A program made the translations under genes and the position numbers. A stretch of 35,067 nt of DNA from a virus. Shown in pieces: positions 6,364-29,780 of the stretch (its first letter is position 1; every line of letters starts with the position of its first letter). Where the stretch lies: positions 1-35,067 of IMG/VR virus record IMGVR_UViG_3300025146_000040. One strand, written 5' to 3'. A model generated the notes under the pieces. That model saw only the letters and a program-made list of their open reading frames with translations. It did not search any database and had not been told where the DNA came from.

Positions 6364-6597
6364 TTATTCCATCAGGCCCTCTGAGTCGGTCGGCCGGATC
6401 CGTCCAGTCGCCCTATTGTCAGCCTCCGCCCGCCGCTTGTCAATCCGAATGCGCTCCACGGGTCCCGGGACGGTCAACTCCCGAGGCTCGCCCTCGTGCC
6501 AATGAATCTGGCTCGGCCCGGTATACCGACGCGCCGCGAGGCGCCGCCGCAGTTCCCGCCAGCCGTCGGCGAAGGAGCCGACGTGCCGGTCGCTCAT
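6364..6597 (-). CDS. Small conserved-looking protein downstream of portal
   Basis: 77 residues, start ATG 6597 overlapping the portal stop by 4 bp (ATGA), so it is translationally coupled to the portal gene. The sequence is polar and basic in its middle (WRELRRRLAARRYTGPSQIH, ERIRIDKRRAEADNRATG), with no Cys or membrane helix. I do not recognise it. Its place between portal and scaffold suggests a head-assembly accessory role. Confidence 0.65.
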   Translation of the reverse strand: MSDRHVGSFADGWRELRRRLAARRYTGPSQIHWHEGEPRELTVPGPVERIRIDKRRAEADNRATGRIRPTDSEGLME

Positions 6598-8858: not shown

Positions 8859-9117
8859 GGGGGCGCTCCTTGACGAGCGTGGCACGGAAGCTTTCGCCGA
8901 CGCGCAGACTGAACGGCCTCGTCGTCACCGAGAGCAGGACCGGCGGCAGCCCCGGCTCGCGCGTCAGCCGCAGCCAGCGAGGCTCCCCGCCGAAGGACAG
9001 CGGATACCACGCCGCCTCGACGGCCCAGAAGCGCCGCAGGTGCGCCGCGCACGCCTCACAATACCGGGCGACGAACGCCTCGGCGTCTCGCCGGTGAAAT
9101 TCGGGCAGGACGAGCAT
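8851..9117 (-). CDS. Small protein upstream of portal
   Basis: 88 residues, MLVLPEFHRRDAEAFVARYC then EAC, overlapping both neighbours (the 9056-9481 gene by 62 bp, portal by 8 bp). It has a CxxC pair (YCEAC) at about residues 19-22, followed by aromatic-rich sequence (FWAVEAAWYPLSFGG) and a basic C-terminus. There is no known family match. Overlap with both neighbours and good spacing make a real gene likely, but the large upstream overlap lowers certainty. Confidence 0.55.
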   Translation of the reverse strand: MLVLPEFHRRDAEAFVARYCEACAAHLRRFWAVEAAWYPLSFGGEPRWLRLTREPGLPPVLLSVTTRPFSLRVGESFRATLVKERPRG

Positions 9118-10166: not shown

Positions 10167-13100
10167 TTATCGGCCTTGCCAGGATCGCCGCGGCATCCCC
10201 TCGTCGTCTCGCGCCTGCGCCGCCTGCTGGGCCTCGGCGGACGGGGCCACGGGGGCGGCGAACGTGTAGGCCAGCGCATCCGCATCGTCCGGCGAGGCTT
10301 CGTTCCGCTTGGCGATGGAGTCCTTCGACTCGATGACGAGCAACTGCTGCCGGTTGCTGTGATAGCCCGGCACGCCGAGCTGATGTTCCAGGGTCTCGTC
10401 CTTGGCGGGAATCGCCCCGGTTCGTAGCCACTCTTTCATCTGGGACCACATATACGCCCGGTAGTTGTAGGCGTACGGGTCGGGTGGCCACAGCGCCCCG
10501 CCGTTGACTTCCATCACGTTGGAGTAGCCGAGCGCCTTGAGCCCGACGACATACGGCCCGCCGAACGCCGTGTCGACGAACATCATGTCGACCTTCCGCT
10601 GGGGGTCGCGCTCAGCCAGCAGGGTCGCCAGCACGGTGAGAAACGCCGTCCGGTCGTGCCGCGTCTTTTCCCCCGGCACCCGAATCGGGGGGATCGACCG
10701 CGCGTCCGCCCCACGCCGGAAGCGCACGACGTTCCACGCGGACCCGCCCCCCGACACGTCCACGCCCGCAATCAACGGCTCGCCGGGCAGCGTGAAGACC
10801 TGGCGCGTCTGCGCCGCCCAAATCCGCTCGGTGTCGATGTACTGGAGTTCGGACGCCCGCGGCGGCAGGCCCTTGACCCGGACCCGGACGAAATCGCTGT
10901 CCTCCCCGTAGGTCTCCATCCACTCCTCGATGAGCGCCAGATTCGCCGTCTCCGTCGTGCGGGCGTCGATGACGGAGGGCGACCACCGGCCACGGTCCCG
11001 CCCGAACACCGCTTCGTAGAACTTCCCCCGATTCCGCGTCGCGTTCCCGAAGAGGAAGACCATCGGCTCGCCGCGCGCCAGGCCCCCTTCCTCCACCTCG
11101 TGGATGATGTCGGGCACGCCGCTGTTGCCGCTCCACACGCACACGCCATCGCGCCGCGTGAAGACGAGGTGGTGCGTCGGTAATTCCACGCAGTAGATCA
11201 GCCCGTCATACTCGATGCGCTGCGGGAGGCGCCCCTGCCGGAACGTCATCGGGGCGCGTTGACGGGAGCGCGTGATCGCGAACCCGTCGCGCGAACTGCG
11301 GATGGGGCGTCCGGCGATGGCGCTCCGCGAGGCCATCAGCCGCCGTGTGGAGAGGGTGCTCGTCGCCCCGCTTTTCAGGCACAGTTCGTGGAGCGCATCA
11401 GCCAGCGCCGGTGAGGATGTATAGATCACATCCAGTTTGGGCGTTTTGTGATATCCATCGCCCGCGACATAACTGTCGAGAAAGAGTCCAATCTGTCGCG
11501 CGCTGAGATCGCGCAGGAACGAGGGTAGCGTGCGCGTGAGGCACGAGGCGCCAAACGGCGCGAGGTATTCGGCCAGCGCGCGATCATGAAACCGCAGGTT
11601 CCAGGCCGAACCATTCGCCCGGTACGCGCGTCCGATGAATCCGAGCGCCGCGGCCAGCCGTTGCACAGGCGCCACGTCTCGATTGGAAATGCCGATGCTG
11701 ATATATTCGCGCTGGCTGAAGCGGTTCACCCGCGAGACGAGGTTCCCTTCCGAGAAATACCAGCCGAGAAAGGCGACCCACGCATCCATCCGCACGAGGC
11801 GCGCGGGGAACTGTTTCCGGTCGGAGACGAACGCGGGAATCGTGAACCACTCCACGTCAGGCGCACCCCAGTCAATATGCCGCTGGAGCGCATCGCGAGG
11901 CCCAATCGACTCGGCGGCCACCCAACGAAACGGCCCATAGGCGCCGCGTCGGTGATTCCACCGTTTGGCCCACATCCGGTGATGCGGCGTCACGCACCAT
12001 GACGCATTCTGCCGTCGGTGCTGGAGCATGAGCCCACGCCGATGCGCCCAATGCACGGCCTTCGGGCGCATATAGGTCGCCAGTCCAGTCTCCTGCGACA
12101 TCGTCACGCAGTCGTCGTCTGGACGCACCGCCCCCACACGAATCCACCCACGCCGCGTCAGGATATCGGTGTCGGCGCTGAAACAGTCCTCATCGTTGAT
12201 GTAGAAGCTCGTGCTGGTCGCGCTGTGCTGGCCGGCGAAGGCTTCGGAGTTCTCCGGCTTGCAGGTCTGCGGAGAGCAGAACCAGCTCTCCGGGAAGGCG
12301 GGATGATACATCCGCGCCTGATTGATCCCGAACCACTGGCCCACGAGGTTCAGCCTGCGCCAGCGCATCACCGCCGCCCAGGTCCGCGTCTTGAGCTGAA
12401 TCGACGTATTCGCGGTCACCGTGCCGATGGCGTAGGGCCGCGTACTCATGATCCAGTTAACGAGGACGGCCGCCAGGACCGAGTTGTGCGTCACAATGAA
12501 GTCGTTCGTCAAATACAGGCCGTCCGGATTGGCTACGGTGATGCACTGGCACTCGGCTGGTTCGACCGCCTCGATACGGTCAATCCATCGTGCCAGGTAG
12601 CGAGGCTCACAGGTGTCGCGCACGCGCGCCTGCTTCGCCGGCAAAGAGAACGGCTGCACCGCTCCGGGCAACCGGATCTGCACATGATGCATCGGTCGGA
12701 TGCCCTTCCCGGTTGGCGCCTTCACGCGAACAAACGCCTTACCTCCAAGCGACCGCACGAGCCACGCGACATCGTCAGCGAGACGCGAGGAACAGGAATC
12801 AAACTCGACTTGCCCGTCCGCCTGCGCGTACCCATCACTGTCAAGTAGCCCGCGGAGGACCTCTGCCCGCACCGCTGGGGTGTTGTACTTCAGCACATCC
12901 GGGACATATCGGTCGGGTTGCGCGAGTTCTGCGAGTCCCAACCCGCGCAAGTGATGCACGAGGCCCCCGATCGCGACCGACACCCCTTCACCCTCACCCT
13001 CGCGACGGACACGCCCGGGCTGATAGCCCCGCGCTCGTGCATGGCCGCAGAACAGGTCCACCTCATGCGCGGCCACGCTGAGTCGTCCAGTGCGACGGAC

Positions 13101-13805
13101 CCCGTCACCCAGCCACACGCCCACGATATACGGGTCGCCGACAACACGCTGGAAAGGCCACGCGGCTGGGCCCTGCTGCGGGATCTCCCAGACCCGCGTG
13201 GTGGCCACGCCATTCGCTCGGCGGACGCCGCAGTCCACCAATGCCTCGGTACTCAGCGTCTCCCACTCAGGAATGAACCGCCGACCGCGGCGCGCGCGAT
13301 AGCCATCGCGACGCCGACCGCCGCGCCCACGGACCGTCCAGAGATGGTCTGCCGACACGCGCGTGCTCGTCCTGTCGTCAAACACCACCCGATACATCGG
13401 CAGGAGGCCTCGCGGATGGACCGCCACGATTGTGGTGGGCTGCCCGTCGGCGCCGAATACTCGATCGCCAGGCCGCAAGTCGCCCCAGCGTCGGATGCCG
13501 GCAGGCGTCAACGCCTCACTCTCCACGTCTCCCGCTCCGCCCACCCCATGACCTTTGGATACCGCTTTGCGAATCGGCAACACGGGCGTCCGCCCGTCGA
13601 AGCGCCGCGCCCGCACCTCCTCCCCGACCCAGCGCAGGACCTCCGCCTGCCACGGCTGGGGGCCGTCGAAGCCTTCGAGGAGCCCGGGCTGGCGCCACGG
13701 GAACAGATGGACCATGAATCCCAACGGATCGGCGTAGAAGAGCCGGATCGTCTCGACGATCTCGCCCGAGAGCGTCGCCGGATCGACGCGGGGCGCGGGG
13801 ATCAG
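10167..13805 (-). CDS. terL: Terminase large subunit containing two inteins
   Basis: A 1212-residue precursor; the extein after removal of both inteins is ~507 residues, normal for TerL. The ATPase part has a P-loop region KGHGVGG|S, split by intein 1, and a Walker B YINDED|S, split by intein 2. The C-terminal RNase H-like nuclease shows the acidic set GVDVSGGG, FVDTAFGG and SPDDADALAY. The P-loop Lys is at the first position (K-x6-S), as in lambda gpA-type 'deviant' Walker A, not before the Ser. No ATG/GTG sits at the start: SD AAGGAG is 8 nt from CTG 13805, which overlaps the upstream stop as CTGA, so a CTG start is proposed. The protein would pump DNA into the prohead through the portal and cut concatemers. 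Confidence 0.93.
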   Translation of the reverse strand: MIPAPRVDPATLSGEIVETIRLFYADPLGFMVHLFPWRQPGLLEGFDGPQPWQAEVLRWVGEEVRARRFDGRTPVLPIRKAVSKGHGVGGAGDVESEALTPAGIRRWGDLRPGDRVFGADGQPTTIVAVHPRGLLPMYRVVFDDRTSTRVSADHLWTVRGRGGRRRDGYRARRGRRFIPEWETLSTEALVDCGVRRANGVATTRVWEIPQQGPAAWPFQRVVGDPYIVGVWLGDGVRRTGRLSVAAHEVDLFCGHARARGYQPGRVRREGEGEGVSVAIGGLVHHLRGLGLAELAQPDRYVPDVLKYNTPAVRAEVLRGLLDSDGYAQADGQVEFDSCSSRLADDVAWLVRSLGGKAFVRVKAPTGKGIRPMHHVQIRLPGAVQPFSLPAKQARVRDTCEPRYLARWIDRIEAVEPAECQCITVANPDGLYLTNDFIVTHNSVLAAVLVNWIMSTRPYAIGTVTANTSIQLKTRTWAAVMRWRRLNLVGQWFGINQARMYHPAFPESWFCSPQTCKPENSEAFAGQHSATSTSFYINDEDCFSADTDILTRRGWIRVGAVRPDDDCVTMSQETGLATYMRPKAVHWAHRRGLMLQHRRQNASWCVTPHHRMWAKRWNHRRGAYGPFRWVAAESIGPRDALQRHIDWGAPDVEWFTIPAFVSDRKQFPARLVRMDAWVAFLGWYFSEGNLVSRVNRFSQREYISIGISNRDVAPVQRLAAALGFIGRAYRANGSAWNLRFHDRALAEYLAPFGASCLTRTLPSFLRDLSARQIGLFLDSYVAGDGYHKTPKLDVIYTSSPALADALHELCLKSGATSTLSTRRLMASRSAIAGRPIRSSRDGFAITRSRQRAPMTFRQGRLPQRIEYDGLIYCVELPTHHLVFTRRDGVCVWSGNSGVPDIIHEVEEGGLARGEPMVFLFGNATRNRGKFYEAVFGRDRGRWSPSVIDARTTETANLALIEEWMETYGEDSDFVRVRVKGLPPRASELQYIDTERIWAAQTRQVFTLPGEPLIAGVDVSGGGSAWNVVRFRRGADARSIPPIRVPGEKTRHDRTAFLTVLATLLAERDPQRKVDMMFVDTAFGGPYVVGLKALGYSNVMEVNGGALWPPDPYAYNYRAYMWSQMKEWLRTGAIPAKDETLEHQLGVPGYHSNRQQLLVIESKDSIAKRNEASPDDADALAYTFAAPVAPSAEAQQAAQARDDEGMPRRSWQGR
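11124..12185 (-). mobile_element. Intein 2 of TerL, in the Walker B motif
   Basis: 354 residues inserted between INDED and SGVPD. It begins with Cys (CFSADTDILTRRGWIRVGAV, block A) and has block B CVTPHHRM (T66, H69), so it is a class 1 type intein. Degenerate LAGLIDADG-like motifs (FLGWYFSEGN, LFLDSYVAGDG) show a homing-endonuclease domain. It ends CVWSGN|S: the penultimate His is replaced by Gly. The +1 nucleophile is Ser. Spliced, it would restore a Walker B (DED-S) and allow terminase activity. Unlike intein 1, its splice domain has a Cys nucleophile, so the two did not arise by duplication. Confidence 0.92.
12483..13535 (-). mobile_element. Intein 1 of TerL, class 3 type, in the P-loop
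   Basis: 351 residues (boundaries by alignment to the DnaB intein here). It begins AGDVESEALTPAG, i.e. Ala not Cys/Ser, and ends FIVTHN|S. The class 3 WCT triad is present: W66 in SADHLW, C331 in QCITVANP and T349 in VTHN. A LAGLIDADG endonuclease domain is present (VGVWLGDGV, GLLDSDGYA). The exact first residue (A146 of the open frame, or a neighbouring G) is uncertain by one or two residues. Known class 3 inteins use the block F Cys as first nucleophile. Insertion is in the nucleotide-binding loop of the ATPase. Confidence 0.9.
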
Positions 13806-14065
13806 TGGACGGGCTCCTTGGCGGGGTGGCCCAGATCGCCCGACGCGGGCCCGTCGATCACGGTCGAGCTGACGATCCCGAAGATCTCCGCGATCTGGCT
13901 GCACGTCTGCCCGACCGCGCCGATGTGCCGCCACGGGAACGTCAACGTGCGGTCGCCGCACGCCGCACACATCAGCCGGACCACCGCGAGATCCCCGTCG
14001 AACGACACCACGATCGTATCGTGGTGCCGCGCGCCGTCTGCCGCCGGCGTCGCGTCGGTCATCAT
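13802..14065 (-). CDS. Small CxxC protein between terminase genes
   Basis: 86-87 residues; ATG 14065 overlaps the terS stop (ATGA) and a second ATG at 14062 has SD GGGAGG 6 nt upstream. A single CxxC pair occurs (LMCAACGDRTLTFPWRHIGA), followed by QIAEIFGI, an HTH-like helix. It may be a small DNA-binding or packaging accessory protein. Its end overlaps the proposed CTG start of terL. The function is unknown. Confidence 0.65.
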   Translation of the reverse strand: MMTDATPAADGARHHDTIVVSFDGDLAVVRLMCAACGDRTLTFPWRHIGAVGQTCSQIAEIFGIVSSTVIDGPASGDLGHPAKEPVH

Positions 14066-14709
14066 CGGCCTCCCGTCTTCAATCGCTGGGCGAGGGCATC
14101 TGATGCCCCCGTCGGCTCCGGCGTGATATCAATCGCCGGCGGCACGCGAGGCGCCTTGGCGGCCCGCAGGATCGCCCGGATCTCCGCCATCTTACTCGCG
14201 AGCGCCTGCCAGTCCACCCCGCCCGTGTCGGCCCCCTGCTCGCCGACCAAGTGGAGGTGGCGCATCAAGAGCTCGAGCGGCTTGATTTTGTCCCACAGCC
14301 GGATCTTGACGACATCCTCCTGCGCGCCGTCGCCCGCCGTGAGGTTCCGCTTGAGCACCTCGACGCTGCTCACCGCCCGGCGCGCGTGCTCCGGCCACTG
14401 GTGCACCGTCTTGAGTGCGCCCTTCGGCGTAAACAGGTCGCCGATGTCCGAGTACGCGAGCCGCGCGCACTCGCGGAGCACCCGCTGGGGGTCGATCAGG
14501 TCGCGGATGCGGATGGCTGCCGCACGCCGGACCTGAGGGGCCCGCCCCCCGTGGAGCCGACACACGCTCCCGCCCAGGATCGCCGCCTGCCGACAGCGCT
14601 GGCCCGTCGACTTCGTCTTCGCGTAACACTGCCCGCTCACGCGCTCGCGGGCCAGCCCCACCGGGGCGTACTGCGCATCACGGGGGGTGCCAGGCTTGCG
14701 CCGCGCCAC
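14062..14709 (-). CDS. terS: Terminase small subunit with zinc-type N-terminus
   Basis: 215 residues from GTG 14709. The N-terminus has a C28...C39...C50-x2-H53-G-G zinc-like motif (CYAKTKSTGQRC, CRLHGG). The middle and C-terminus match the helical part of terminase small subunits: DPQRVLRECARLAYSDIGDL, then KGALKTVHQWPEHARRAVSS and KIRLWDKIKPLELLMRHLHL. The usual N-terminal HTH of that family is absent; a segment like it occurs in the distant 32718-33725 protein. An IS element lies 5 bp upstream of the start codon and has displaced its native upstream region. It is coupled to the downstream small gene by an ATGA overlap. Confidence 0.8.
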   Translation of the reverse strand: MARRKPGTPRDAQYAPVGLARERVSGQCYAKTKSTGQRCRQAAILGGSVCRLHGGRAPQVRRAAAIRIRDLIDPQRVLRECARLAYSDIGDLFTPKGALKTVHQWPEHARRAVSSVEVLKRNLTAGDGAQEDVVKIRLWDKIKPLELLMRHLHLVGEQGADTGGVDWQALASKMAEIRAILRAAKAPRVPPAIDITPEPTGASDALAQRLKTGGR

Positions 14710-14726
14710 GTTACCAATGACGGCGT

Positions 14727-14751
14727 AAAGCCCCCGGCTTCAGCCGTGGGG
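14727..14751 (+). repeat. IS left-end hairpin with guide AAAG
   Basis: The guide AAAG at 14727-14730 is followed by a hairpin, CCCC-CGGCT-TC-AGCCG-T-GGGG, the subterminal structure recognised by Y1 transposase. The target TTAC lies 12 nt upstream. Confidence 0.85.
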
Positions 14752-14809
14752 ATATAAGCCGCTTCTCTGAATGCTGATATACAGCTAAGCGTGGTATACT
14801 ACTCAATGC

Positions 14810-15211
14810 ATGAACCTTTCGACCTACAAATCGAACCGCCACATCGTCTACTCCAGCAAATACCACGTCGTCTGGTGCCCGAAGTACCGGCGCAAGGTGC
14901 TGGTCGGGGTCGTCGCGAAACGGCTGGAGCGCGTGCTGAAAACGCTCTGCGCCAAGATGAAGGTCGACATCCTCGCACTGGAGATCATGCCCGACCATGT
15001 GCATCTCCTCTGCGAGGTCGACCCACAGTTCGGCGTCCATCGGCTCGTGAAGCGGCTGAAGGGCAACACGTCGCACACGTTGCGGCAGGAGTTCCCGTCG
15101 CTGAAGTCGCGCCTGCCGACGCTCTGGACGCATTCGTACTTCGTGAGCACGGTCGGCGGAGCGCCGCTCTCGGTGATAAAGCAGTACGTCGAGAATCAGA
15201 AGAATGTCTAA
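14810..15211 (+). CDS. tnpA: Y1 transposase TnpA of the IS200/IS605 element
   Basis: 133 residues. The HUH motif is MPDHVHLL (H63, H65) and the catalytic Tyr is Y126 in VIKQYVENQ, both as required for single-strand transposition by cleavage at the TTAC target and TCAC right end. Typical early motif KYHVVWCPKYRRKVL is present. The start ATG 14810 follows a TATACT -10-like box at 14795. It overlaps tnpB by 8 bp, and the order tnpA-tnpB in the same direction is that of IS605-type elements. No disruption is seen. Confidence 0.95.
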   Translation: MNLSTYKSNRHIVYSSKYHVVWCPKYRRKVLVGVVAKRLERVLKTLCAKMKVDILALEIMPDHVHLLCEVDPQFGVHRLVKRLKGNTSHTLRQEFPSLKSRLPTLWTHSYFVSTVGGAPLSVIKQYVENQKNV

Positions 15212-16319
15212 GAAGACGTTCCGCTATCGGCTGTATCCCACGGCCGCACAGCGCGACGTGCTCGATGGGCAACTCCGGCTTTGCTGCGAGCTGTACAACG
15301 CTGCCCTTCAGGAGCGCCGAGATGCGTGGCGCATGGCTCGCGTGTCGGTGAGGTTCGCGGGACAGTCGGCGCAGCTCCCGGCCATCAAGGTCGACCGTCC
15401 CGATGTGGCGGGTGTCTATTCGCAGGTGCTGCAGGACGTGCTCCACCGCGTCGACAAAGCGTTCGGCGCGTTCTTCGGCCGCGTGCGCCGTGGCGAGAAG
15501 GCCGGGTATCCGCGCTTCCGTGGCCGGAGTCGGTTCGACTCGCTCACGTACCCGCAACTCGGCTTCGCCGTCGAGGGCCGACACCTGAACCTGTCGAAGG
15601 TCGGTGCGGTCAAGATCAAGCTGCACCGGCCTATCGACGGGACGATCAAGACGCTGACGATCAAGCGGGAGGCCGGAAAGTGGTTCGCCTGCTTCAGCGT
15701 CGATGTTGAGCCCGCGCCACTCGCCTTGTCGGTGGAGTCCATCGGCGTCGACGTCGGACTGACCCACTTCGCGACGTTGAGCGACGGCACGCAGATTGCG
15801 AACCCGCGCCACGCCCGTAGGGCGGAAGCGCAGATGCGCCGAGCGCAGCGCCGAATTGCTCGCCGTCGCCGTGGTAGCGCCGGGCGGCGCGAAGCCGTCC
15901 GCCTGTTCCAACTCGCCCAAGCGCATGTGCGGGCTCAACGGGCCGACGCGCACCACAAGCTCTCGCGGTTGCTGGTGAATCGCTACGGTCTCATCTCGGT
16001 CGAGGATCTGAACATCAAGGGACTGGCTGGCGGAATGCTCGCCAAGTCGGTCCACGATGCCGGTTGGTCGTCCTTCATCGACAAGCTTGCGTACAAGGCT
16101 GAAAGTGCCGGGCGCATTCTCCAGAAGGTCGACCCGCGCGGCACGTCGCAGCACTGCACGTGCGGTGCCCACGTACCGAAGACACTGAGCCAACGCTGGC
16201 ACCTGTGTCCGGAGTGTGGGTTGTCGGCCGCTCGTGATCATGTGTCTGCTCAACTCGTCGATTGGCTCGGACTGAGCCTTCAAGACCCAACGTGGGCGGT
16301 TGCGCCGTGCGTGTCTTGA
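15204..16319 (+). CDS. tnpB: RNA-guided nuclease TnpB
   Basis: 371 residues, within the usual TnpB range. It has an N-terminal helix-turn-helix (YRLYPTAAQRDVLDGQLRLC), then a RuvC-like nuclease with all three acidic residues: D183 (GVDVGLTHFATL), E267 (ISVEDLNIKGL) and D345 (SAARDHVSAQ). A zinc ribbon is formed by HCTC (C318, C320) and CPEC (C335, C338). TnpB proteins are guided by a right-end RNA (omega RNA) and help the IS persist by cutting donor sites from which it excised. All catalytic residues are present, so the enzyme is probably active. Confidence 0.95.
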   Translation: MSKKTFRYRLYPTAAQRDVLDGQLRLCCELYNAALQERRDAWRMARVSVRFAGQSAQLPAIKVDRPDVAGVYSQVLQDVLHRVDKAFGAFFGRVRRGEKAGYPRFRGRSRFDSLTYPQLGFAVEGRHLNLSKVGAVKIKLHRPIDGTIKTLTIKREAGKWFACFSVDVEPAPLALSVESIGVDVGLTHFATLSDGTQIANPRHARRAEAQMRRAQRRIARRRRGSAGRREAVRLFQLAQAHVRAQRADAHHKLSRLLVNRYGLISVEDLNIKGLAGGMLAKSVHDAGWSSFIDKLAYKAESAGRILQKVDPRGTSQHCTCGAHVPKTLSQRWHLCPECGLSAARDHVSAQLVDWLGLSLQDPTWAVAPCVS

Positions 16320-16369
16320 GAAGCCCCTGGCTTCAGCCATGGGGAGTAGTCACCCTCGCGACCTCATCG
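16200..16369 (+). ncRNA. Probable omega RNA of TnpB, ending at the IS right end
   Basis: In IS605 elements the guide RNA scaffold covers the 3' end of tnpB and the right-end hairpin, and the guide is the host sequence next to the right end. Here the scaffold would include the 16324-16344 hairpin, and the guide would begin at 16354 (cctcgcgacctcatcg). The 5' boundary is approximate. Because the left flank is TTAC, the predicted target is TTAC followed by this guide, which is exactly the empty insertion site. Inferred from family knowledge; no promoter is visible. Confidence 0.45.
16324..16344 (+). repeat. IS right-end hairpin
   Basis: CCCC-TGGCT-TC-AGCCA-T-GGGG, preceded by the guide GAAG (16320-16323) that pairs with the cleavage site TCAC (16350-16353). 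It also supplies the stop codon that now ends the minus-strand gene truncated by the IS. Confidence 0.85.
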
Positions 16370-16851
16370 ACGAACCTCCCCGTCGCGCACACGCAGCCCG
16401 CGAAACACCCGCGCGCCCAGTGCGCACCCTCGACGTGCCCGCATCGCCGGCAGGTCACCGCCATCGCCTCAGCGCCCACCACAGGAGCGTCAGCCGGCGC
16501 CACCAGGACAGCCGAGCCCGAGTCGCGAGCCGCCACGCGCCCACGATCGTCGGCCTCACCATCCACACGTCCAGCGTGCTCGGCGCGTGGTCGGCCTCGA
16601 GGTCGTACTCTCGCACCATCCGGAGGCTGATCCCGAGTGCCTCGCCGCCGCGGTCCGGCGACCGCCGCGAGCAGCTCGTCGACGCTGCCCGACCATCGTC
16701 GCACCTGCGGGTGGCCATCGGTGAGCACCTCCTCCAGCCGCGCCGTCGCCCAGCGCGTCACGCTCTCCCCCGCCGCCTTGGCCGCCGCCTGGGCGCCGCG
16801 ATACACCGCCTCGTCCGTCAACCAGACCGGGTAGCGCTTCACACGGGGCAT
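16333..16851 (-). CDS. RHH-like/zinc protein gene, 3' end interrupted by the IS
   Basis: An open frame from ATG 16851 (an upstream GTG at 16860 is in frame), 172 residues. The first part (MPRVKRYPVWLTDEAVYRGA, then SVTRWATARLEEVL) resembles a ribbon-helix-helix DNA-binding protein. The end has a cluster CRRCGHVEGAHWARGC, then FAGCVC, a typical small phage zinc protein pattern. Residues ~83-132 look like non-coding translation, and another frame is better there (see the 16455-16619 gene). This could be two real genes joined by chance, or a frameshift. The last residues and the stop come from the IS right end. Confidence 0.5.
   Translation of the reverse strand: MPRVKRYPVWLTDEAVYRGAQAAAKAAGESVTRWATARLEEVLTDGHPQVRRWSGSVDELLAAVAGPRRRGTRDQPPDGARVRPRGRPRAEHAGRVDGEADDRGRVAARDSGSAVLVAPADAPVVGAEAMAVTCRRCGHVEGAHWARGCFAGCVCATGRFVDEVARVTTPHG
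16455..16619 (-). CDS. Possible small membrane protein overlapping in another frame
   Basis: 54 residues, MVREYDLEADHAPSTLDVWM, then VRPTIVGAWRL and LSWWRRLTLLWWALRR, with a Trp-rich hydrophobic segment that suggests membrane association. The frame differs from the 16333-16851 frame; its end overlaps an internal ATG (16464) of the zinc-type segment by 10 bp. That layout fits a three-gene arrangement (RHH, membrane, zinc). Support is only from sequence character and overlap; a frame error in the RHH gene could also join them. Confidence 0.35.
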   Translation of the reverse strand: MVREYDLEADHAPSTLDVWMVRPTIVGAWRLATRARLSWWRRLTLLWWALRRWR

Positions 16852-16863
16852 TGACAGCACGAT

Positions 16864-16902
16864 GATATCACGGGGATATCACGGGGTCTGGATATCACGG
16901 GG
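16864..16902. promoter_or_regulatory. Three direct repeats upstream of the minus packaging operon
   Basis: GATATCACGGGG occurs at 16864-16875, 16875-16886 and 16891-16902 (starts 11 and 16 bp apart), just upstream of ATG 16851. Placement suits operator sites for autoregulation by the RHH-like protein encoded directly downstream. No clear promoter is recognised around them. The units are direct repeats, but each contains the palindrome GATATC. Confidence 0.65.
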
Positions 16903-16963
16903 TGCCCGCCGCGCGTCAGGTCTAGCCCCGCGTGGGTCCCCGCGCTGTGCAGCCGTTGAGCAT

Positions 16964-17080
16964 CGGCCAAGATCTTGGCCGGGCGGCTAAGATCTTGGCC
17001 GGTGCGAAAGTGGAGGGAGTTCCCGAGTGAATCCGGGCGAAAGCGAAGATCTTCGTGAGAAGCGGCCAATGGGTTGGCCG
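16964..17080. promoter_or_regulatory. Four operator-like inverted repeats in the divergent control region
   Basis: Half-site CGGCCAA-N4-TTGGCCG: perfect with centre GATC at 16964-16981; one mismatch at 16984-17001, exactly 20 bp from the first; perfect with centre TGGG at 17063-17080. A shorter CGAAGATCTTCG palindrome lies at 17044-17055. The region separates the leftward packaging operon and the rightward small operon, with no gene from 16852 to 17197 apart from these elements. It looks like a phage switch region. I cannot identify -35/-10 boxes in it. Confidence 0.75.
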
Positions 17081-17197
17081 ACGCTCGCGGCCGGCGCCCG
17101 CGTGGAATCAAGAGGTTAGCGGCGGCATCCGACATGCAGGAGTACCGCGCGGAGGACGACACCGATGAGGCCAGGAGACCTTAAGGAGACGCGGATT

Positions 17198-17566
17198 ATG
17201 CTGACCGTCAAGATCGTCCCGAACGACAAGGGAAATCCGGTAGGGAAACTGGCGGACGCGGAGCTGCACTTCGGCGATCACCCGCTCGCGCAACTCGTCG
17301 GAGATACTACCAAGGAAGCTGACGCGCGTAGGCTTGCCGATGAACACAATCCGCTTGCCGGCCTGAAGCTGATCGGCTTCGCCATCTGGGAGCGGAGGGC
17401 CGGGGGCGGACGCAACGTGACCTTTCCGGCCCGGCAGTACTCCGTCAACGGCGAGCGCCGCAGCTTCGCGCTATTGCGCCCGGTCGCCGAGACGCCCGCG
17501 CATGAGCACATCCGCGATCTGATCCTGGCGGCGTATGCCGAGTACGAGTCGACGCTCACTGTCTGA
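17198..17566 (+). CDS. First gene of the plus operon; SpoVG-like fold possible
   Basis: 122 residues from ATG 17198 (SD GGAG 9 nt upstream; the frame also extends to ATG 17165). The middle and end (LKLIGFAIWERRAGGGRNVT, FPARQYSVNGERRSFALLRP, then IRDLILAAYAEYE) follow the order of strands and C-terminal helix seen in SpoVG-type nucleic-acid-binding proteins. That is a weak resemblance, so the call is tentative. It is the first of four genes in the only plus-strand operon that belongs to the phage, transcribed away from the operator array. Confidence 0.65.
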   Translation: MLTVKIVPNDKGNPVGKLADAELHFGDHPLAQLVGDTTKEADARRLADEHNPLAGLKLIGFAIWERRAGGGRNVTFPARQYSVNGERRSFALLRPVAETPAHEHIRDLILAAYAEYESTLTV

Positions 17567-17575
17567 GGCTGCCCC

Positions 17576-17604
17576 GTGGGGCCGTGGCGCTGGCACGGCC
17601 CCAC
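17576..17604 (+). other. Strong hairpin between first and second plus-operon genes
   Basis: A perfect 11-bp stem, GTGGGGCCGTG / CACGGCCCCAC with a 7-nt loop (GCGCTGG), 9 nt after the stop of the first gene. No T-run follows, so it is not a classic intrinsic terminator. It could protect the upstream mRNA or attenuate the downstream genes. Confidence 0.6.
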
Positions 17605-17639
17605 GCATGACTATCAGCGCGCGGGCGAAAGGCGGGACG

Positions 17640-17852
17640 ATGACACAGCAGACGATTCGGTATTGGGACGGCGCGCAGTACGTGACGGTCGCGGGCCGGC
17701 TGCTGGGGACCGAGCCGAGGCGGGAGGCCGGGCGGGAGGACGTGGTGTGCTACCGGCTCAGCGACGGACGGCTCCTCGCTGGCGTGCGGCAGACAGACCG
17801 CGAGGATCTGACGCAGGTCGTCATCCTCGCGCGCGGGAGGACAGCATCATGA
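17640..17852 (+). CDS. Small hypothetical protein, plus operon gene 2
   Basis: 70 residues, MTQQTIRYWDGAQYVTVAGR through VVILARGRTAS. ATG 17640 chosen for the GGCGGG sequence upstream; the longer frame to 17535 includes the hairpin region. The chain has a compact beta pattern with RLLGTEPR and CYRLSDGRLLAGVRQTD. Unknown function. Its TGA overlaps the next gene's ATG (ATGA), so it is coupled to the zinc protein that follows. Confidence 0.65.
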   Translation: MTQQTIRYWDGAQYVTVAGRLLGTEPRREAGREDVVCYRLSDGRLLAGVRQTDREDLTQVVILARGRTAS

Positions 17853-18130
17853 CCGATCCACTGAGACCCTGCGAGTGGTGCGGCGACACGACGGCGGAGC
17901 GCGTCTCCTGGCTCATGGACCCACGACGCCCAGCGATCTGCTGGGCGTGCTACAACACGGCCGCGCAGAAATACGCAGACGTGCGGGCGCTGCTCCACGC
18001 CGTAGCGCCCGGCTTCTTGGACGACGTCGAACCGGACACGGTCGGCTACTGGATCGGGGAGGGGCGGAGCGTCCACGCGATCGCGCGGATCCTGCTCGGC
18101 CTGCCGGATGCGGATGGGGGAGAAGCATGA
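17849..18130 (+). CDS. Small zinc-finger protein, plus operon gene 3
   Basis: 93 residues from ATG 17849, overlapping the previous stop by 4 bp. Two CxxC pairs, CEWC and CWAC, about 21 residues apart, make a zinc ribbon. A helical region follows (CYNTAAQKYADVRALLHAVA, HAIARILLGLPDADGG). It could bind nucleic acid or act as a small regulator of the phage operon. The next start again overlaps this stop (ATGA). Confidence 0.65.
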   Translation: MTDPLRPCEWCGDTTAERVSWLMDPRRPAICWACYNTAAQKYADVRALLHAVAPGFLDDVEPDTVGYWIGEGRSVHAIARILLGLPDADGGEA

Positions 18131-18357
18131 ACTGCCGCTTTCGCATCGTCGGCCGGCTCGACGCCGCCTCACGCGTCCAGGCCGGCACCGTCACGATCTC
18201 CCGCACCGCAGGAACGTTCGCCGTAAGGCCCCGGCGGCGGCGCCGGGAATACCTGTTGCCCCTCTCCACGGTCGCGGAGATGGTCTGCCAGCGGATCCTC
18301 CGCGCCGAGGTGGCCGAGCAACGGGCAATCAAGAAGGCTCGGACGACTGCCCGCTAA
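18127..18357 (+). CDS. Small basic protein, plus operon gene 4
   Basis: 76 residues, MNCRFRIVGRLDAASRVQAG then a basic stretch VRPRRRRREYLLPLST and a C-terminal helix with many Arg/Lys. ATG 18127 overlaps the previous stop, and SD GGGGGAG lies upstream. It has a plausible nucleic-acid-binding composition. It ends the plus operon, just before and partly inside the large terminator hairpin. Confidence 0.6.
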   Translation: MNCRFRIVGRLDAASRVQAGTVTISRTAGTFAVRPRRRRREYLLPLSTVAEMVCQRILRAEVAEQRAIKKARTTAR

Positions 18358-18417
18358 TCGCCTCGTGGCGGGGGGCCTGCCCCGCGCTCACCCCGCCACG
18401 AGGCGCCTGGGCAGTCG
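18344..18417. terminator. Large two-tier hairpin between convergent operons
   Basis: An inner perfect 15-bp stem, CGCCTCGTGGCGGGG (18359-18373) with its complement at 18391-18405, plus an outer 9-bp stem, CGACTGCCC (18344-18352) with GGGCAGTCG (18409-18417). It lies exactly where the plus operon (end 18357) and the minus operon (end 18441) meet. The plus side has a TTTT run at 18423. It is probably a bidirectional terminator. Confidence 0.75.
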
Positions 18418-18973: not shown

Positions 18974-19221
18974 CGGAACGCCTCCGCCTGCGGCTTCCAG
19001 GACGCCGCGACGGATCGTTGGATCGCCTTCCGCCGCCGCGTGATTGTGGACGGGTCCCGGTTGGGCCGCGCCGCGACCGACGCCGGCTCAGCGAACCGGG
19101 CGGGGTGGTCCCCCCCGATCTCAGCCGGCGAGAACCCGCGCGCGACCGTCGAGCACGGCCCGCAGTTCGGGTTGGCGCACCGCACAAAGCAGCAGCCGCG
19201 CAGGGGCTCAGGCGACCCCAC
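18970..19221 (-). CDS. Small Cys-rich protein
   Basis: 83 residues from GTG 19221 (SD GGGAGG). The N-terminus has four Cys (GCCFVRCANPNCGPC) in a possible metal-binding cluster, followed by a basic, disordered-looking C-terminus ending KPQAEAFR. Overlap with both neighbours (14 bp upstream, 4 bp downstream) supports a real gene. No known family. Confidence 0.55.
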   Translation of the reverse strand: MGSPEPLRGCCFVRCANPNCGPCSTVARGFSPAEIGGDHPARFAEPASVAARPNRDPSTITRRRKAIQRSVAASWKPQAEAFR

Positions 19222-19897
19222 GGTGCCTCCCTAGGTCTTTCTGCGCAGCCGGCCGCGCCCCGATGTGCGAGGACGCCCGCGCCGCGATCACATGCGCGTG
19301 CGCCAGCGTGGCCACCGCCGCCTTGACCCGGGCCCACGCCTGCCGCTCAGCCGCCGAGCCGCCCTCCGCTTCCTCGACCACCCGCACTGTCACGTCCACG
19401 GTGTGCAGCGTCGGCGCCTGCCCCTCGGTGACTCGCGTCTGCTCGGCCGCCTTCAGCTCGCGCGTGAACTCCCGCACGGTCCAGCCTTCCGTCTGCGCCT
19501 TGTCGAGCCACCGCTCCTGCTCCGGGGCCTCGAGCTTCGTCACCGCCGCCGCATGCGTGATCGACGGCGAGAGGTCGCGCGCCCGCCCCTTGACCTTCCG
19601 GCTCACCGTCGCCCGATTCTCCAAGGTGTGATGCGCCAGGCCCGTCACGCTGAGGAGCTGCTCGCGCTGCGCCCGCCAGTCCTCTCGGCTGTCCAAGTAT
19701 TCAATCAGGTCGCCGACCCAGTACGGTGAGCCCTCTTCAGAGGCCGTCGCGTACTGAAAGGCTACCTGCCACCCGCTCGCATCGGGCCGCGGGCCGACCA
19801 TCGGCACCGCCGCACGCGCCCGCAGTTCAAAACCGCCTATCTTGAGTGGCCGGTCATCGAAGAATCTCCCGTTGGCGGGAAGTGTGGGTCGTCGCAT
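19208..19897 (-). CDS. HTH DNA-binding-like protein
   Basis: 229 residues from ATG 19897, with SD GGAGG 7 nt upstream; the frame continues into a Val/Ala/Gly repeat, but that is the tandem-repeat tract. The order 'WVGDLIEYLDSRED...LLSVTGLAHHTLENRATVSR...DLSPSITHAAAVTKLEAPEQ' resembles ParB/KorB-like HTH proteins of phages and plasmids. It is probably a DNA-binding protein or regulator of replication. The C-terminal third is helical and basic. The family is inferred from pattern. Confidence 0.65.
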   Translation of the reverse strand: MRRPTLPANGRFFDDRPLKIGGFELRARAAVPMVGPRPDASGWQVAFQYATASEEGSPYWVGDLIEYLDSREDWRAQREQLLSVTGLAHHTLENRATVSRKVKGRARDLSPSITHAAAVTKLEAPEQERWLDKAQTEGWTVREFTRELKAAEQTRVTEGQAPTLHTVDVTVRVVEEAEGGSAAERQAWARVKAAVATLAHAHVIAARASSHIGARPAAQKDLGRHRGVA

Positions 19898-19911
19898 CCT
19901 CCGGCCTCCGT

Positions 19912-20049
19912 TCAGCGTTTCGACCCCGACCGCGACCGCGACCGCGACCACCACCGCGACCCCGACCGCGACCACGACCCCGACCGCGACCACGACCACG
20001 ACCCCGACCGCGACGCCGAATAGCCCGCGCAGAGCCCGGCGCTCGTCAC
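19912..20049 (-). CDS. Possible RS/SW-repeat small protein
   Basis: 45 residues, starting at GTG 20049 with a 4-bp GTGA overlap to the upstream stop. After a short head it is only Ser, Arg, Gly, Trp and Lys (SRSGSWSWSRSGSWSRSGSR...), encoded by a 6-bp tandem repeat. Such repeats can code for RS-type, RNA-binding-like peptides, or they may be translated by chance. The overlap is the main support. Confidence 0.35.
   Translation of the reverse strand: MTSAGLCAGYSASRSGSWSWSRSGSWSRSGSRWWSRSRSRSGSKR
19921..20016. repeat. Hexanucleotide tandem repeat tract
   Basis: About 16 copies of CGACCN (N variable), ~96 bp, between the 20046-20345 gene and the HTH gene. On the minus strand the frames are open: Val/Ala/Gly-rich in frame with the HTH gene, and Ser/Arg/Trp-rich in the frame coupled to the upstream gene. 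Confidence 0.85.
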
Positions 20050-20345
20050 TGCTGCTCCCTCGGGAGTGTCGGAATCTCCACCGCATCCACGATCGCCCCA
20101 CGCCCGATGATGACGCGTCCGCGTGGGAACGGCTCCACCTCGCGGAACGTCCCCGTCGTGAGGGCGTCCGTGAATCGCCCCGTGTCGGCAATCCACGCCG
20201 CATCTTCCAGCACCAGCTCGTGCTCGGTGACGGCCACCAACCGCCCCGTGTCGATCATGGTGACCGTGCGGATCAGGTAGTTCGCGCCGATGCGCCAACC
20301 AGGCGCCGCCTGCGTCGTCTTTGGTGTCTTCGTCCTACGTGTCAT
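20046..20345 (-). CDS. Conserved phage-type small protein
   Basis: 99 residues from ATG 20345 (SD AAGGAGGAG, 6 nt upstream). The phrase GANYLIRTVTMIDTGRLVAV, then TEHELVLEDAAWIADTGRFT and VIIGRGAIVDAVEIP, is a pattern I know from unnamed small proteins in many tailed phages (an Sm-like/SH3-like beta barrel by appearance). It is probably a core phage protein of unknown role. A five-codon mini-ORF (MTKEE) lies just before it. Confidence 0.75.
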   Translation of the reverse strand: MTRRTKTPKTTQAAPGWRIGANYLIRTVTMIDTGRLVAVTEHELVLEDAAWIADTGRFTDALTTGTFREVEPFPRGRVIIGRGAIVDAVEIPTLPREQQ

Positions 20346-22315: not shown

Positions 22316-24775
22316 TCACCGCCCTTTGGCTCTCGCCCGGATGATCGCCCGCGTCTTCTCGGCCTGCCGCTCCGCTGCGTCCTCCGCGCGTGCGTCCTCG
22401 ACCGTCTGTTCCCCCGCATCGGTGAAGAGTTGGATATCCCGATCCAGAGACAGGTTGATGGTGCCGGTGGGTCCGTTGCGCTGCTTGTCCACGATCGCGC
22501 TCGTCAACCCGCCCGCCTTATGATCTTTCCGGTGCAAAAAGCACACGACATCCGCGTCCTGTTCCAGCGCCCCGGAATCGCGGAGGGCTTCGAGGCTCGG
22601 CCGCACGGGCCCGATCCGCCTGAGCTGCGACAGCACGATCACGGGCACGCCAAGCTCGCCGGCCATCCACTTGAGCCGCTGCGAGACGTCCCCTAATTCC
22701 TCATTCCGTGTCGCCCCGCGCCGGTCGAGGCTGCCGCGGATGAGTTGGATGTAATCGACGATCACTAGCCCAAGACCTGTGTCACTCCGCTGGCGCCGGC
22801 AGGCCGTGCGGATCTCCTGGACGGTGATCCCGGTCTGGTCCATGACCGACAACGGCAAATCACCCAACGTCACCAGCGCAGACGAGAGCCCGTCGTAGTC
22901 TGAGTCCGAGAGATAGCCCGTCTGGATTTTCGTCAAGGGCACGCGCGCGAGGCTTGAGAGCATCCGCCGCTCGAGCTGTCGCCGGCGCATCTCTAGCGAG
23001 AAGATCGCGACGTGCCGCCCCTGCCGCGCCGCCGCGACCGACGCGTTCAGCGCGAGGGCCGTATTGTGCGTCACGACGTAGTGATCCGTCAGATACAGCC
23101 CCGAGGGATGACTGACGGCGATGCACTGCATCGGCGCCTCACCGCAGGGTTCCACTGAGACAATCGTCAGCCGCGATCGCCGACCATTCGGCCGCGCCTT
23201 CCGCGCCTTCCGCGCCAAACTAAACAGGCCCGGCGCATCGCGATGACTGATGATGAGGACATACGCCGGGCGGCCGACGCGCTTCTCTCCGCGATACGAG
23301 TACGTCGGCTGCGCTTTAATCCGCAGCGTGCAGACCGCCCCGAGCGACCACGCGAGGGCCTGGACATCCCTCGCGAGCCCTTCACTGGCCGAACTGAAAC
23401 ACACCGCCCCCTGCGCCCACCCATCCGAATCCAGCAACCCGCGTAAGAGCGCAAGCCGGTCCGCGTAGCGCCCCCCGAAGTACGGCCCTGGAATCCGTTT
23501 TTCATACGAATGCCGGCCCATCGCACCCAAGGTCCGCAATGCCACCGTCACCGCATTCGGACGCTGACCGCGTCGGACGACCGAAATGCGATAACTGGCA
23601 CTGCCGGGACCCTCGCGCCGCACCACCAGGTCTGGTGGTAGGCGCGCCCGCACCGCCTTTACCATGTCAGGATCGGACGTGGAGAACCGAGGCGTCCGAT
23701 TGACAAGGCAGCCATTCCCCAGCAGATACCCGAGTAACCAGGGATCTAACGGCCACGGCCGATCGGTGCCGTGGGCGCCGCTCGTGAGTGGCACCGACAG
23801 GCGACCGCGATACCGAACCCGATTCAGAAGGCCACCGATCTCCCGCGTGGTTCGGATCGCCATGCGCCGCACACGACGAGACGTATAGGTCTCCCATAGA
23901 TGATCTCCACACGTCTCCACCGAGCGCCCATCGATGAACGTGACGCGATACCTCGGCTTCGTGCCCTGCGGGAATATCCCGGTCACGTGCGACGCGCGCC
24001 CATCGACGGAGGCCACCACGTCTCCCACACGAAGATCCCCGAGACGAGCCCAGTCCCCAGAGGCCCGCAAGACCTGCGCAGAGAGCGGTTGTGCTTTCCC
24101 GATCGATGGGCGGGCCGCCACGATGATCAGGTCTCCCGACTGCCAGCCCTGCGTCAACTCGTTCATGCTCGCAAAGCCGGTGTCCACACCCAGAAGTTGC
24201 CCTTTGTGGGCGACCAGCGCTTCGAGGTCCGCAAAGACCGAGTGGGAGCGGTCCCGGATGTCCACCAAGCCGCAGCGGTCGCCGGCCATCTGCACGTCGA
24301 GCAGTGCCCGGTCAGCCGACTGCACAATCTCGGCCGCCGTCAGCGCGGCGTCGTACGCCTCCGTCACGATCTTGGTGCCCGCCTGCACCAGCGACCGCAG
24401 CAGGAACTTTTCGCGCACAATGCCTGCGTAGTAACGGACGTTCGTCGCGTGCGGCAACCCGTCGACGAGGCTGGAGAGATACGCCGGCCCGCCCACGTCC
24501 TCAAGCTCGCCAGCGCGACGCAACTCGTTCTTGAGCGTGACGAGGTCAATAGCCTCCCCGCGGTCGACCACCCGCGCCATCGCCTTGAACACCCGCTGAT
24601 GGGCGTCACGGAAGAACATCTCGTCGCGCAGCACCTCCGCGAGTTGGTCGAACACGTCTGCGTGGAGCAAGACCGAACCGAGGACCGCCCGTTCCGCTTC
24701 CAGGCTCGTCGGTAAGGCGCGCTCAGGACTCTCCGGCTCCGCGAGTTCGGCTGTGGTGGGCCGTCGTCGCGTCAC
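22316..24775 (-). CDS. dnaB: Replicative DNA helicase DnaB, with a class 3 intein
   Basis: 819 residues; 475 after splicing, the size of DnaB. Start GTG 24775 chosen because it overlaps the upstream stop (GTGA); further upstream is shadow. The N-terminal domain (PTSLEAERAVLGSVLLHADV) and linker are typical, and the RecA-like motor has the P-loop ARPSIGK|T broken by the intein. Further helicase motifs are VIVDYIQLI (Walker B), IVLSQLRR, and the late ALEQDADVVCFLHR. It would unwind DNA at the replication fork as a hexamer. A possible loader (24772-25263) lies directly upstream. Confidence 0.95.
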   Translation of the reverse strand: MTRRRPTTAELAEPESPERALPTSLEAERAVLGSVLLHADVFDQLAEVLRDEMFFRDAHQRVFKAMARVVDRGEAIDLVTLKNELRRAGELEDVGGPAYLSSLVDGLPHATNVRYYAGIVREKFLLRSLVQAGTKIVTEAYDAALTAAEIVQSADRALLDVQMAGDRCGLVDIRDRSHSVFADLEALVAHKGQLLGVDTGFASMNELTQGWQSGDLIIVAARPSIGKAQPLSAQVLRASGDWARLGDLRVGDVVASVDGRASHVTGIFPQGTKPRYRVTFIDGRSVETCGDHLWETYTSRRVRRMAIRTTREIGGLLNRVRYRGRLSVPLTSGAHGTDRPWPLDPWLLGYLLGNGCLVNRTPRFSTSDPDMVKAVRARLPPDLVVRREGPGSASYRISVVRRGQRPNAVTVALRTLGAMGRHSYEKRIPGPYFGGRYADRLALLRGLLDSDGWAQGAVCFSSASEGLARDVQALAWSLGAVCTLRIKAQPTYSYRGEKRVGRPAYVLIISHRDAPGLFSLARKARKARPNGRRSRLTIVSVEPCGEAPMQCIAVSHPSGLYLTDHYVVTHNTALALNASVAAARQGRHVAIFSLEMRRRQLERRMLSSLARVPLTKIQTGYLSDSDYDGLSSALVTLGDLPLSVMDQTGITVQEIRTACRRQRSDTGLGLVIVDYIQLIRGSLDRRGATRNEELGDVSQRLKWMAGELGVPVIVLSQLRRIGPVRPSLEALRDSGALEQDADVVCFLHRKDHKAGGLTSAIVDKQRNGPTGTINLSLDRDIQLFTDAGEQTVEDARAEDAAERQAEKTRAIIRARAKGR
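23063..24094 (-). mobile_element. Class 3 intein in the DnaB P-loop
   Basis: 344 residues between GK and T of the Walker A motif. It begins AQPLSAQVLRASG with Ala, and ends YVVTHN|T. The class 3 WCT set is present: W67 (CGDHLW), C324 (MQCIAVSHP) and T342 (VVTHN). LAGLIDADG motifs (LGYLLGNGCL, GLLDSDGWAQ) mark an endonuclease domain. The site and class match DnaB inteins known from mycobacteriophages. It is clearly related to TerL intein 1 (shared GDLRxGD, block F and ends). Confidence 0.93.
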
Positions 24776-25263
24776 GCCCGCATCTCCGCGGCGCGCCGCC
24801 GGGTATGTTGCTGATCCGTCGCGCACGGGGGCACATGGCGGCAGTCGGCTGGCGCGTCGGCCTCGAGTTCGAGATCTGTCGGGGTTCCTGCGTCCGCGTA
24901 GCGGTTGACGTTCGCCACAAACAGCGCGAATGGATGCCTGGCTTTGACGAGGTATGGATCGTCGTCCCACACGTAGTTCAGCCAGCGCGCCGCGATGGGC
25001 TCCGGCCCGCCGAGCAGTTTCAAGAGCCGTTTCAGGTTCGGCCGGTCCCGCGTGTATTGCCAGACGTACGGCGTCTTGTGCCGCGCCGCCCAGGTCGCCG
25101 AGAGCGCCTCCTCGAGCTCCCGCAGGATCTTCCCGATGCCCGCCTCCCCATTCAGGAGCCGCCCCAATTCCTCCGTCACCTCGTAGGTCTTCGCTTGCAG
25201 CTCGCGTAACGTCTCATAGAGCCGCTTCAGCTTCTCGGAGGTTCTCTTGTCTGGTTCAGGCAT
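24772..25263 (-). CDS. Phage replication-associated protein, possible helicase loader
   Basis: 163 residues from ATG 25263, with SD GGAGG 5 nt upstream; longer frames to 25356 lack support. The N-terminus is a coiled coil (KRTSEKLKRLYETLRELQAK). The C-terminal helical domain has TPYVWQYTRDRPNLKRLLKL, then IAARWLNYVWDDDPYLVKAR and HPFALFVANVNRYA. This resembles the small helical domain found in phage replication proteins beside DnaB. Being directly upstream of, and coupled by GTGA to, dnaB makes a loader or partner role attractive. It is inference from context and pattern. Confidence 0.6.
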   Translation of the reverse strand: MPEPDKRTSEKLKRLYETLRELQAKTYEVTEELGRLLNGEAGIGKILRELEEALSATWAARHKTPYVWQYTRDRPNLKRLLKLLGGPEPIAARWLNYVWDDDPYLVKARHPFALFVANVNRYADAGTPTDLELEADAPADCRHVPPCATDQQHTRRRAAEMRA

Positions 25264-29591: not shown

Positions 29592-29780
29592 TTAGGACTG
29601 CCCTTCTTTTCCGCCAGCCTTCTGAAGAACGATCTTGAGCGTCCCCATCTCGAACAGTTCATCGAAGATGCGAGCCACGAGCCCCCGCGCCATCTTGGCC
29701 GGATGGGCAAACGCAGCCTCGCCGATCAGGCCCTTCCAGCCGGCGTCGTAGCAGCCCTGCCACTCAACCACGGGGGTCAT
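29592..29780 (-). pseudogene. N-terminal remnant of a phage DNA methylase
   Basis: 62 residues from ATG 29780 (overlapping the helicase stop, ATGA). The segment WKGLIGEAAFAHPAKMARGLVARIFDELFEMG, seen here in pieces, is the usual N-terminal phrase of phage DNA methyltransferases (GLI...FAHPAKxARGL..RI). There it is followed by a D-P-F-G-G SAM-binding motif, which is missing here: the frame ends in QKAGGKEGQS. So the gene seems to have lost its catalytic part. It may be a pseudogene or a short retained peptide. Confidence 0.6.

Follow-up and report, generated by a model that had tools for sequence, protein, structure and literature searches.

A palindrome array with a recurring half-site between divergent genes of a P22-like podovirus: a candidate cis-regulatory cluster

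The window analyzed here is a whole virus record (IMGVR_UViG_3300025146_000040; 35,067 bases) of GC-rich DNA, in which the late genes run leftward (Table 1). The portal matches phrog_156 (E = 2.6e-82), is P22-like, and shares ~30% identity with other portals. Overall, the phage is a P22-like podovirus with a bidirectional control region, i.e., the gap at 16852–17197 between an RHH-like ORF starting at 16851 on the minus strand and a short plus-strand operon starting at 17198. The original prediction gave this divergent region as ~340 bp, and its length indeed comes to ~346 bp if the first plus-operon gene begins at ATG 17198, which, rather than 17165, is the start common to the relatives of this gene. 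Close relatives of the phage were absent from viral_contigs when searched via the RHH-like ORF, TerS, or the ParB-like gene, and the DNA of 16300–17600 yielded zero matches among phages.

Table 1 Features of the control region and of the late genes.
Feature	Position	Strand	Description
Portal	6594–8885	leftward	late gene
TerL	10167–13970	− (leftward)	late gene
TerS	14062–14709	leftward	late gene
RHH-like ORF	16333–16851	−	N-terminal ~70 aa RHH-like; rest of frame may be non-coding
Direct repeats GATATCACGGGG	16864–16902 (starts 16864, 16875, 16891)	+	three exact copies in the RHH-like ORF start region
A + B as a single inverted repeat	16960–17005	+	22-nt arms, 2 nt between
Palindrome A, CGGCCAAGATCTTGGCCG	16964–16981		perfect 18-bp dyad; read directly and by pattern search
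Palindrome B, CGGCTAAGATCTTGGCCG	16984–17001		one mismatch; centre 20 bp from A
Short palindrome C, CGAAGATCTTCG	17044–17055		AAGATCTT core in common with A and B
Palindrome D, CGGCCAATGGGTTGGCCG	17063–17080		arms perfect, same as A/B; different centre
Weak sigma-54-like −24/−12 element, CGGCATCCGACATGCA	17123–17138	+	candidate promoter of the plus operon
AAGGAG	17183–17188	+	probable ribosome-binding site (SD) of the plus gene
First plus-operon gene	17198–17566	+	SpoVG-like fold, 122 aa

Within this gap lies an array of inverted repeats, for which three near-perfect palindromes, two of them 20 bp apart, and a related shorter one had been predicted; all of these were confirmed (A, B, and D, and the shorter C). 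The dyads are centered at 16972.5 (A), 16992.5 (B), 17049.5 (C), and 17071.5 (D), i.e., with spacings of 20, 57, and 22 bp, the first of which is about two helical turns. The half-site CGGCCAA is common to A, B, and D around a variable N4 centre, and a record-wide scan showed that it is not randomly frequent: at ≤1 mismatch, A, B, and D were the sole sites in the 35-kb record (3 vs a mean of 0.03; 0/100 shuffles). Likewise, AAGATCTT occurred 3 times in the record, always within the array (0.17 expected), and the A–B pair was reproduced in 0/100 shuffles. At ≤3 mismatches the count was not unusual (6 sites vs 3.68 expected), and exact inverted repeats with an arm of 7 and a spacer of 2–8 were ordinary (31 vs 26.7 in shuffles), three such repeats falling within 130 bp in 5/30 shuffles. 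Since arm-7 inverted repeats are common in this record, the dense symmetry from which regulator binding had originally been argued proves nothing alone, and the non-randomness of the array rests on the common half-site, not on inverted repeats as such.

The palindromes may also be considered at the level of RNA, i.e., as a 5′ leader of the plus operon in which two strong hairpins (A/B and D) would act on transcription or translation. Consistent with this, the plus strand of 16950–17110 folds with a z of −4.97, and A/B as plus-strand RNA forms a 21-pair stem with a 4-nt loop (−40.5 kcal/mol, vs −32.1 kcal/mol for the minus strand), the plus-strand form being more stable because both departures from perfect pairing are G·U there. 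A sigma-70-like site at 16838–16866 (1 found vs 0.2 expected, with a consensus chosen by us) could transcribe this leader. We nevertheless consider a leader RNA quite improbable: every copy of the site, and hence each arm, is itself palindromic, whereas a simple RNA stem would need no such symmetry, and two wobbles are few. In addition, no GC-rich stem with a trailing T run, as in an intrinsic terminator, was detected in 16700–17300, and Rfam returned nothing at gathering level for 16300–18400, the single match at E ≤ 5 being a sub-threshold snoRNA.

The RHH-like ORF was one of the regulators initially proposed for the palindromes. Its match to Pfam PF07704 (E = 0.12) is below the cut-off, and its model, a beta-alpha-alpha arrangement of low confidence (pLDDT 60), had no meaningful match in the PDB. 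This ORF fits the adjoining GATATCACGGGG direct repeats better than it fits the palindromes; the three repeats are present in the divergent region, as predicted, but outside the palindromic segment at 16964–17080, and they may represent a candidate autoregulatory site of the putative RHH protein, i.e., a better candidate operator at its own start. Omega (ParB of pSM19035), an RHH protein, binds contiguous heptads 5′-WATCACW-3′ in 7–10 copies, according to PMC9499535. Compared with these heptads, the GATATCACGGGG repeats are alike in containing TATCAC beside an RHH-like ORF, and differ in their start-to-start distances of 11 and 16 bp and in their number (three); the likeness concerns the direct repeats and not the palindromes. 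At the C-terminal end of the same frame, a small cysteine-rich frame (16333–16500, minus strand; CRRCGH..GAHWARGCFAGC) has a 70% identical stretch in locus L038, at another place relative to TerS.

The other proposed regulator was a plus-operon gene. The first gene of this operon has 35 viral relatives (at least 35 records with the family), 27 of which were aligned with it (alignment A1, 28 members). The model built from A1 (pLDDT 76.6) predicts that the product has a SpoVG fold: the best VIA matches were the SpoVG structures 2ia9, 2i9z, and 2i9x (Z of 10.3, 9.6, and 9.2, vs 4.1 for the next row; rmsd of 4.2, 4.0, and 3.8 over 87, 85, and 82 residues). By Foldseek alone, SpoVG came second with a weak E of 1.3. 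At the sequence level, identity to the SpoVG structures is 12–13% with an insertion added in the window copy, 0/28 A1 members matched the Pfam SpoVG model at E = 1, the family had no Pfam or PHROG match at E = 0.001, and the best hit of the alignment in a PDB sequence search was unrelated (E = 0.55).

These two neighbors are the basis for a phage-encoded repressor, in which the RHH-like or SpoVG-like product, bound as dimers to A, B, and D, would silence either or both of the divergent promoters. The array does sit between divergent genes, and both neighbors could bind nucleic acid, given the SpoVG fold and the low-confidence RHH-like topology. The DNA motifs bound by SpoVG homologues differ, and one of these motifs is a palindrome (PMC3688583); in other bacteria, SpoVG proteins bind both DNA and RNA (PMC3688583 and PMC4959528). 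We still regard such a repressor as unlikely. For the RHH-like ORF, there are direct repeats at its very start, and for the SpoVG-like gene, the palindromes were absent from the 420 bp upstream in 35/35 relatives (read by eye), while 1/35 of the relatives’ records contained one unrelated site, elsewhere.

Searches in other viruses yielded few candidates. The pair pattern was retrieved from two stretches of viral_contigs (L039 and L040), which were rejected as true arrays on reading as repetitive coding sequence; the exact 18-mer was found in one stretch (L041), within an ORF, and a search for the AAGATCTTGGCC pair found none. The 131-bp array compared with phages and plasmids gave only noise (E ≥ 0.4). 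In the literature library searched, the 16-mer GGCCAAGATCTTGGCC was absent and CCAAGATCTTGG appeared in one unrelated paper.

Among 84,980 species genomes, the close-pair pattern was found in two. In a Vicinamibacteraceae metagenome-assembled genome (MAG; G001), the identical 18-mer occurs twice, 21 bp apart (contig C391, locus L043), and three AAGATCTT pairs are present in 4.8 Mb, on contigs C28, C391, and C431 with cores 32, 21, and 21 bp apart, vs none in 5 other Acidobacteriota. The exact 16-mer was detected in 3/396 genomes of Acidobacteriota, four times in G001 and once in each of two others, while a reversed control pattern was detected in 2 of the 396. The two single copies, in G342 (L048, at an apparent ORF end) and G329 (L049/L064), were set aside as compatible with chance, the control having also been found in two genomes. 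At ≤2 mismatches G001 is not special (8 sites vs 1–9 in seven others), so that the enrichment is one of the exact element. The centre GATC was left unconstrained in the genome scan, yet it is present in both G001 sites, as in A and B. In the second genome, a Schekmanbacteria MAG (G002; L042, 572–587 and 689–805), GGCCAA-N4-TTGGCC occurs just three times, within a single cluster; the centres are 77 and 21 bp apart (20 and 79 in the phage), and two of the sites are exact reverse complements of each other. Hence a pair spacing of 20–21 bp is found in the phage, in the C391 and C431 pairs of G001, and in G002.

The C431 pair lies between genes for glycogen phosphorylase (minus) and a PEP-CTERM protein (plus, Pfam), and the C28 pair lies upstream of a Na/Ca exchanger gene at a contig end. 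The C391 pair follows a gene with a PEP-CTERM-like end (judged by reading) and borders on an SBBP-like ORF, within which it seems to lie, behind a signal peptide. A sigma-54 activator gene lies ~3 kb from the array in C391 (L063) and ~2 kb from it in L042, and both G001 and G002 encode sigma-54, a family also matched in 4/14 control genomes. These chromosomal pairs also weigh against a phage-encoded repressor: G001 has the pair, but matches the RHH N-terminus at no better than E = 0.07, and its SpoVG-type gene (E = 3e-53), a further member of the family of the plus gene, lies on contig C89, separate from the palindrome pairs, where the pieces read contained no AAGATCTT or GGCYAA-N4-TTRGCC site. 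By tblastn, translations of the window had no other convincing match to C89 (next best E = 0.003).

The copies may alternatively reflect a short dispersed palindromic repeat, REP/PATE-like or a hairpin element, spreading as DNA with no regulatory task. Several copies are present in G001, one apparently within an ORF, and the pairs form long near-perfect inverted repeats, including exact reverse complements in G002. The phage itself carries an IS200/IS605 element in its late region (~14725–16350, i.e., ~14.7–16.35 kb; TnpA with Y1_Tnp at 14810–15211 and TnpB at 15204–16319), whose ends are alike and of hairpin type (AAGCCCC.GGCTTCAGCC.TGGGGA, by eye), and IS200/IS605-type elements recognize hairpins. 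We judge a dispersed repeat rather unlikely, however: the 4.8 Mb of G001 contain just three pairs and the 5 other Acidobacteriota contain none, no similarity is seen (by eye) around the pairs beyond the sites themselves, and D and G002 retain the half-site with a different centre. Where REP-like elements would have many extragenic copies per genome, we found 3 sites in the phage, 3 pairs in G001, and 3 sites in G002. The TnpB was also tried as a host marker, with nothing found at E = 1e-60 in 149 genomes from the same class as G001.

A packaging, replication, or partition site bound by TerS or by the ParB-HTH-like protein encoded at 19208–20203 appears very improbable. The array is upstream of the TerS gene, where packaging-type sites often lie, and the 19208–20203 product has a weak ParB-HTH match (E = 0.039); yet L008 and L038 have TerS beside the SpoVG-like gene without palindromes, and the chromosomal copies adjoin no phage genes in the stretches read.

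Sigma-54-type −24/−12 elements were scored between each array and the next start codon, in a post hoc test with a matrix, consensus, and start codons chosen by us. In the phage, CGGCATCCGACATGCA (GG-N10-GC) scored 13.5/17, a level reached in 15/500 shuffles when measured from B and 4/500 when measured from D; 3.6% of 197-nt stretches of the window scored ≥13.5, as did 4/34 upstream regions of array-less relatives (L038 omitted), and a strict scan of the phage region returned no site scoring ≥9. Downstream of the G002 array (L042), TGGCACCTAAGTTGCA is near-perfect (16.5/17; 0/500 shuffles). Elements scoring 14.0 were found in G001 toward the PEP-CTERM gene on C431 (L062, 13/500 shuffles), where the −12 reads GT rather than GC and was therefore missed by the strict scan, and toward the PEP-CTERM-like gene on C391 (L063, 12/500 shuffles); 2.6–3.6% of G001 DNA stretches reach 14. 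No element was found at the third Vicinamibacteraceae locus L061 (474/500 shuffles as good), nor at L064 (29/500), on the glgP side of L062 (427/500), or on the RHH side of the phage region (307/500). The window stretches, the relatives, and the G001 stretches serve as nulls harder than the shuffles; overall, the element is strong in G002 and weak in each other case taken singly. Palindromes A, B, and D end 42–142 nt before 17123, and the A–B dyads, 20 bp apart, are in helical phase.

This layout resembles the upstream activating sequence (UAS) of sigma-54 enhancer-binding proteins (NtrC/AtoC), with paired dyads whole turns apart followed by a candidate −24/−12 element and a start codon, and with activator genes near two related chromosomal arrays. 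It differs in the weakness of the phage −24/−12 element and in a CGGCCAA half-site that matches no confirmable motif. The PEP-CTERM box has an activator site, spacer, sigma-54 motif, and start codon in the same order, its motif 1 being a 17-nt sequence ending in TTTACA that the authors report from Proteobacteria only (Haft et al. 2006, PMC1569441). The phage spacer of 42 nt and the 59 nt to the start codon fall within the published ranges (32–92; mean 71; PMC1569441), and a PEP-CTERM gene (Pfam) or a PEP-CTERM-like gene (by reading) is near one G001 pair each. The differences are the CGGCCAA dyads in place of the TTTACA motif, which is absent from 16852–17198 of the phage, and longer spacers in G001 and G002. 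A direct identity with the PEP-CTERM box and its activator PrsR was rejected on the missing TTTACA and on the curated cut-off, by which neither activator is PrsR (427.5 bits vs 502.6 for that of L063).

Taken together, these patterns suggest a cis-regulatory cluster whose dyads are candidate binding sites of a dimeric regulator, probably of host type. We consider this tentative reading, of which a sigma-54 UAS is the most specific version, plausible though slightly short of probable. From the sequence patterns we infer protein binding, the host origin of the regulator, activation, and the use of sigma-54. The presence of the same pair on a bacterial chromosome favors a host-type regulator over a phage protein, and the sigma-54-like elements suggest activation. 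A dimeric, probably host-encoded regulator would bind A and B as neighbors on a single face of the helix, and D, perhaps C as well, would add further sites for it. Possibly, in the most specific candidate form, for which the phage offers weak support, A, B, and D would bind dimers of a sigma-54 enhancer-binding protein, and looping from these to the weak −24/−12 promoter at 17123 would turn on the short plus operon headed by the SpoVG-like gene. Of the original prediction, binding by a dimeric regulator thus gains from the dyad sites, the recurring half-site, the two-turn spacing, and the lack of further sites in the record; its repressor and genetic switch do not: activation is suggested instead, and the window proteins scanned (a subset of ORFs) gave no family match to an integrase or a CI/Cro-like protein. 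More speculatively, and in our view unlikely in this full form, the phage may have taken up a double site recognized by an enhancer-binding protein of Acidobacteriota, perhaps one belonging to an envelope or PEP-CTERM regulon, so that the operon would read the signalling state of the host.

Little is known of gene control in phages of uncultured bacteria, and a rare 18-bp double site common to a phage and an acidobacterial chromosome offers a concrete handle on its binding protein. If the binding protein is a sigma-54 activator, the phage would couple a short operon to signalling in its host, and the site would be useful as a host marker; if nothing binds, the array is an ordinary dispersed palindrome.

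Elsewhere in the record, three minus-strand genes carry intein-like insertions: TerL (LAGLIDADG_3 above the cut-off, Hint_2 below), a DnaB helicase at 22316–24970 (LAGLIDADG_3), and a SNF2/ResIII-type helicase at 29777–32506 (Intein_splicing below the cut-off). A 12-bp tandem repeat at 19909–20031 gives the ParB-HTH-like ORF a low-complexity N-terminus.
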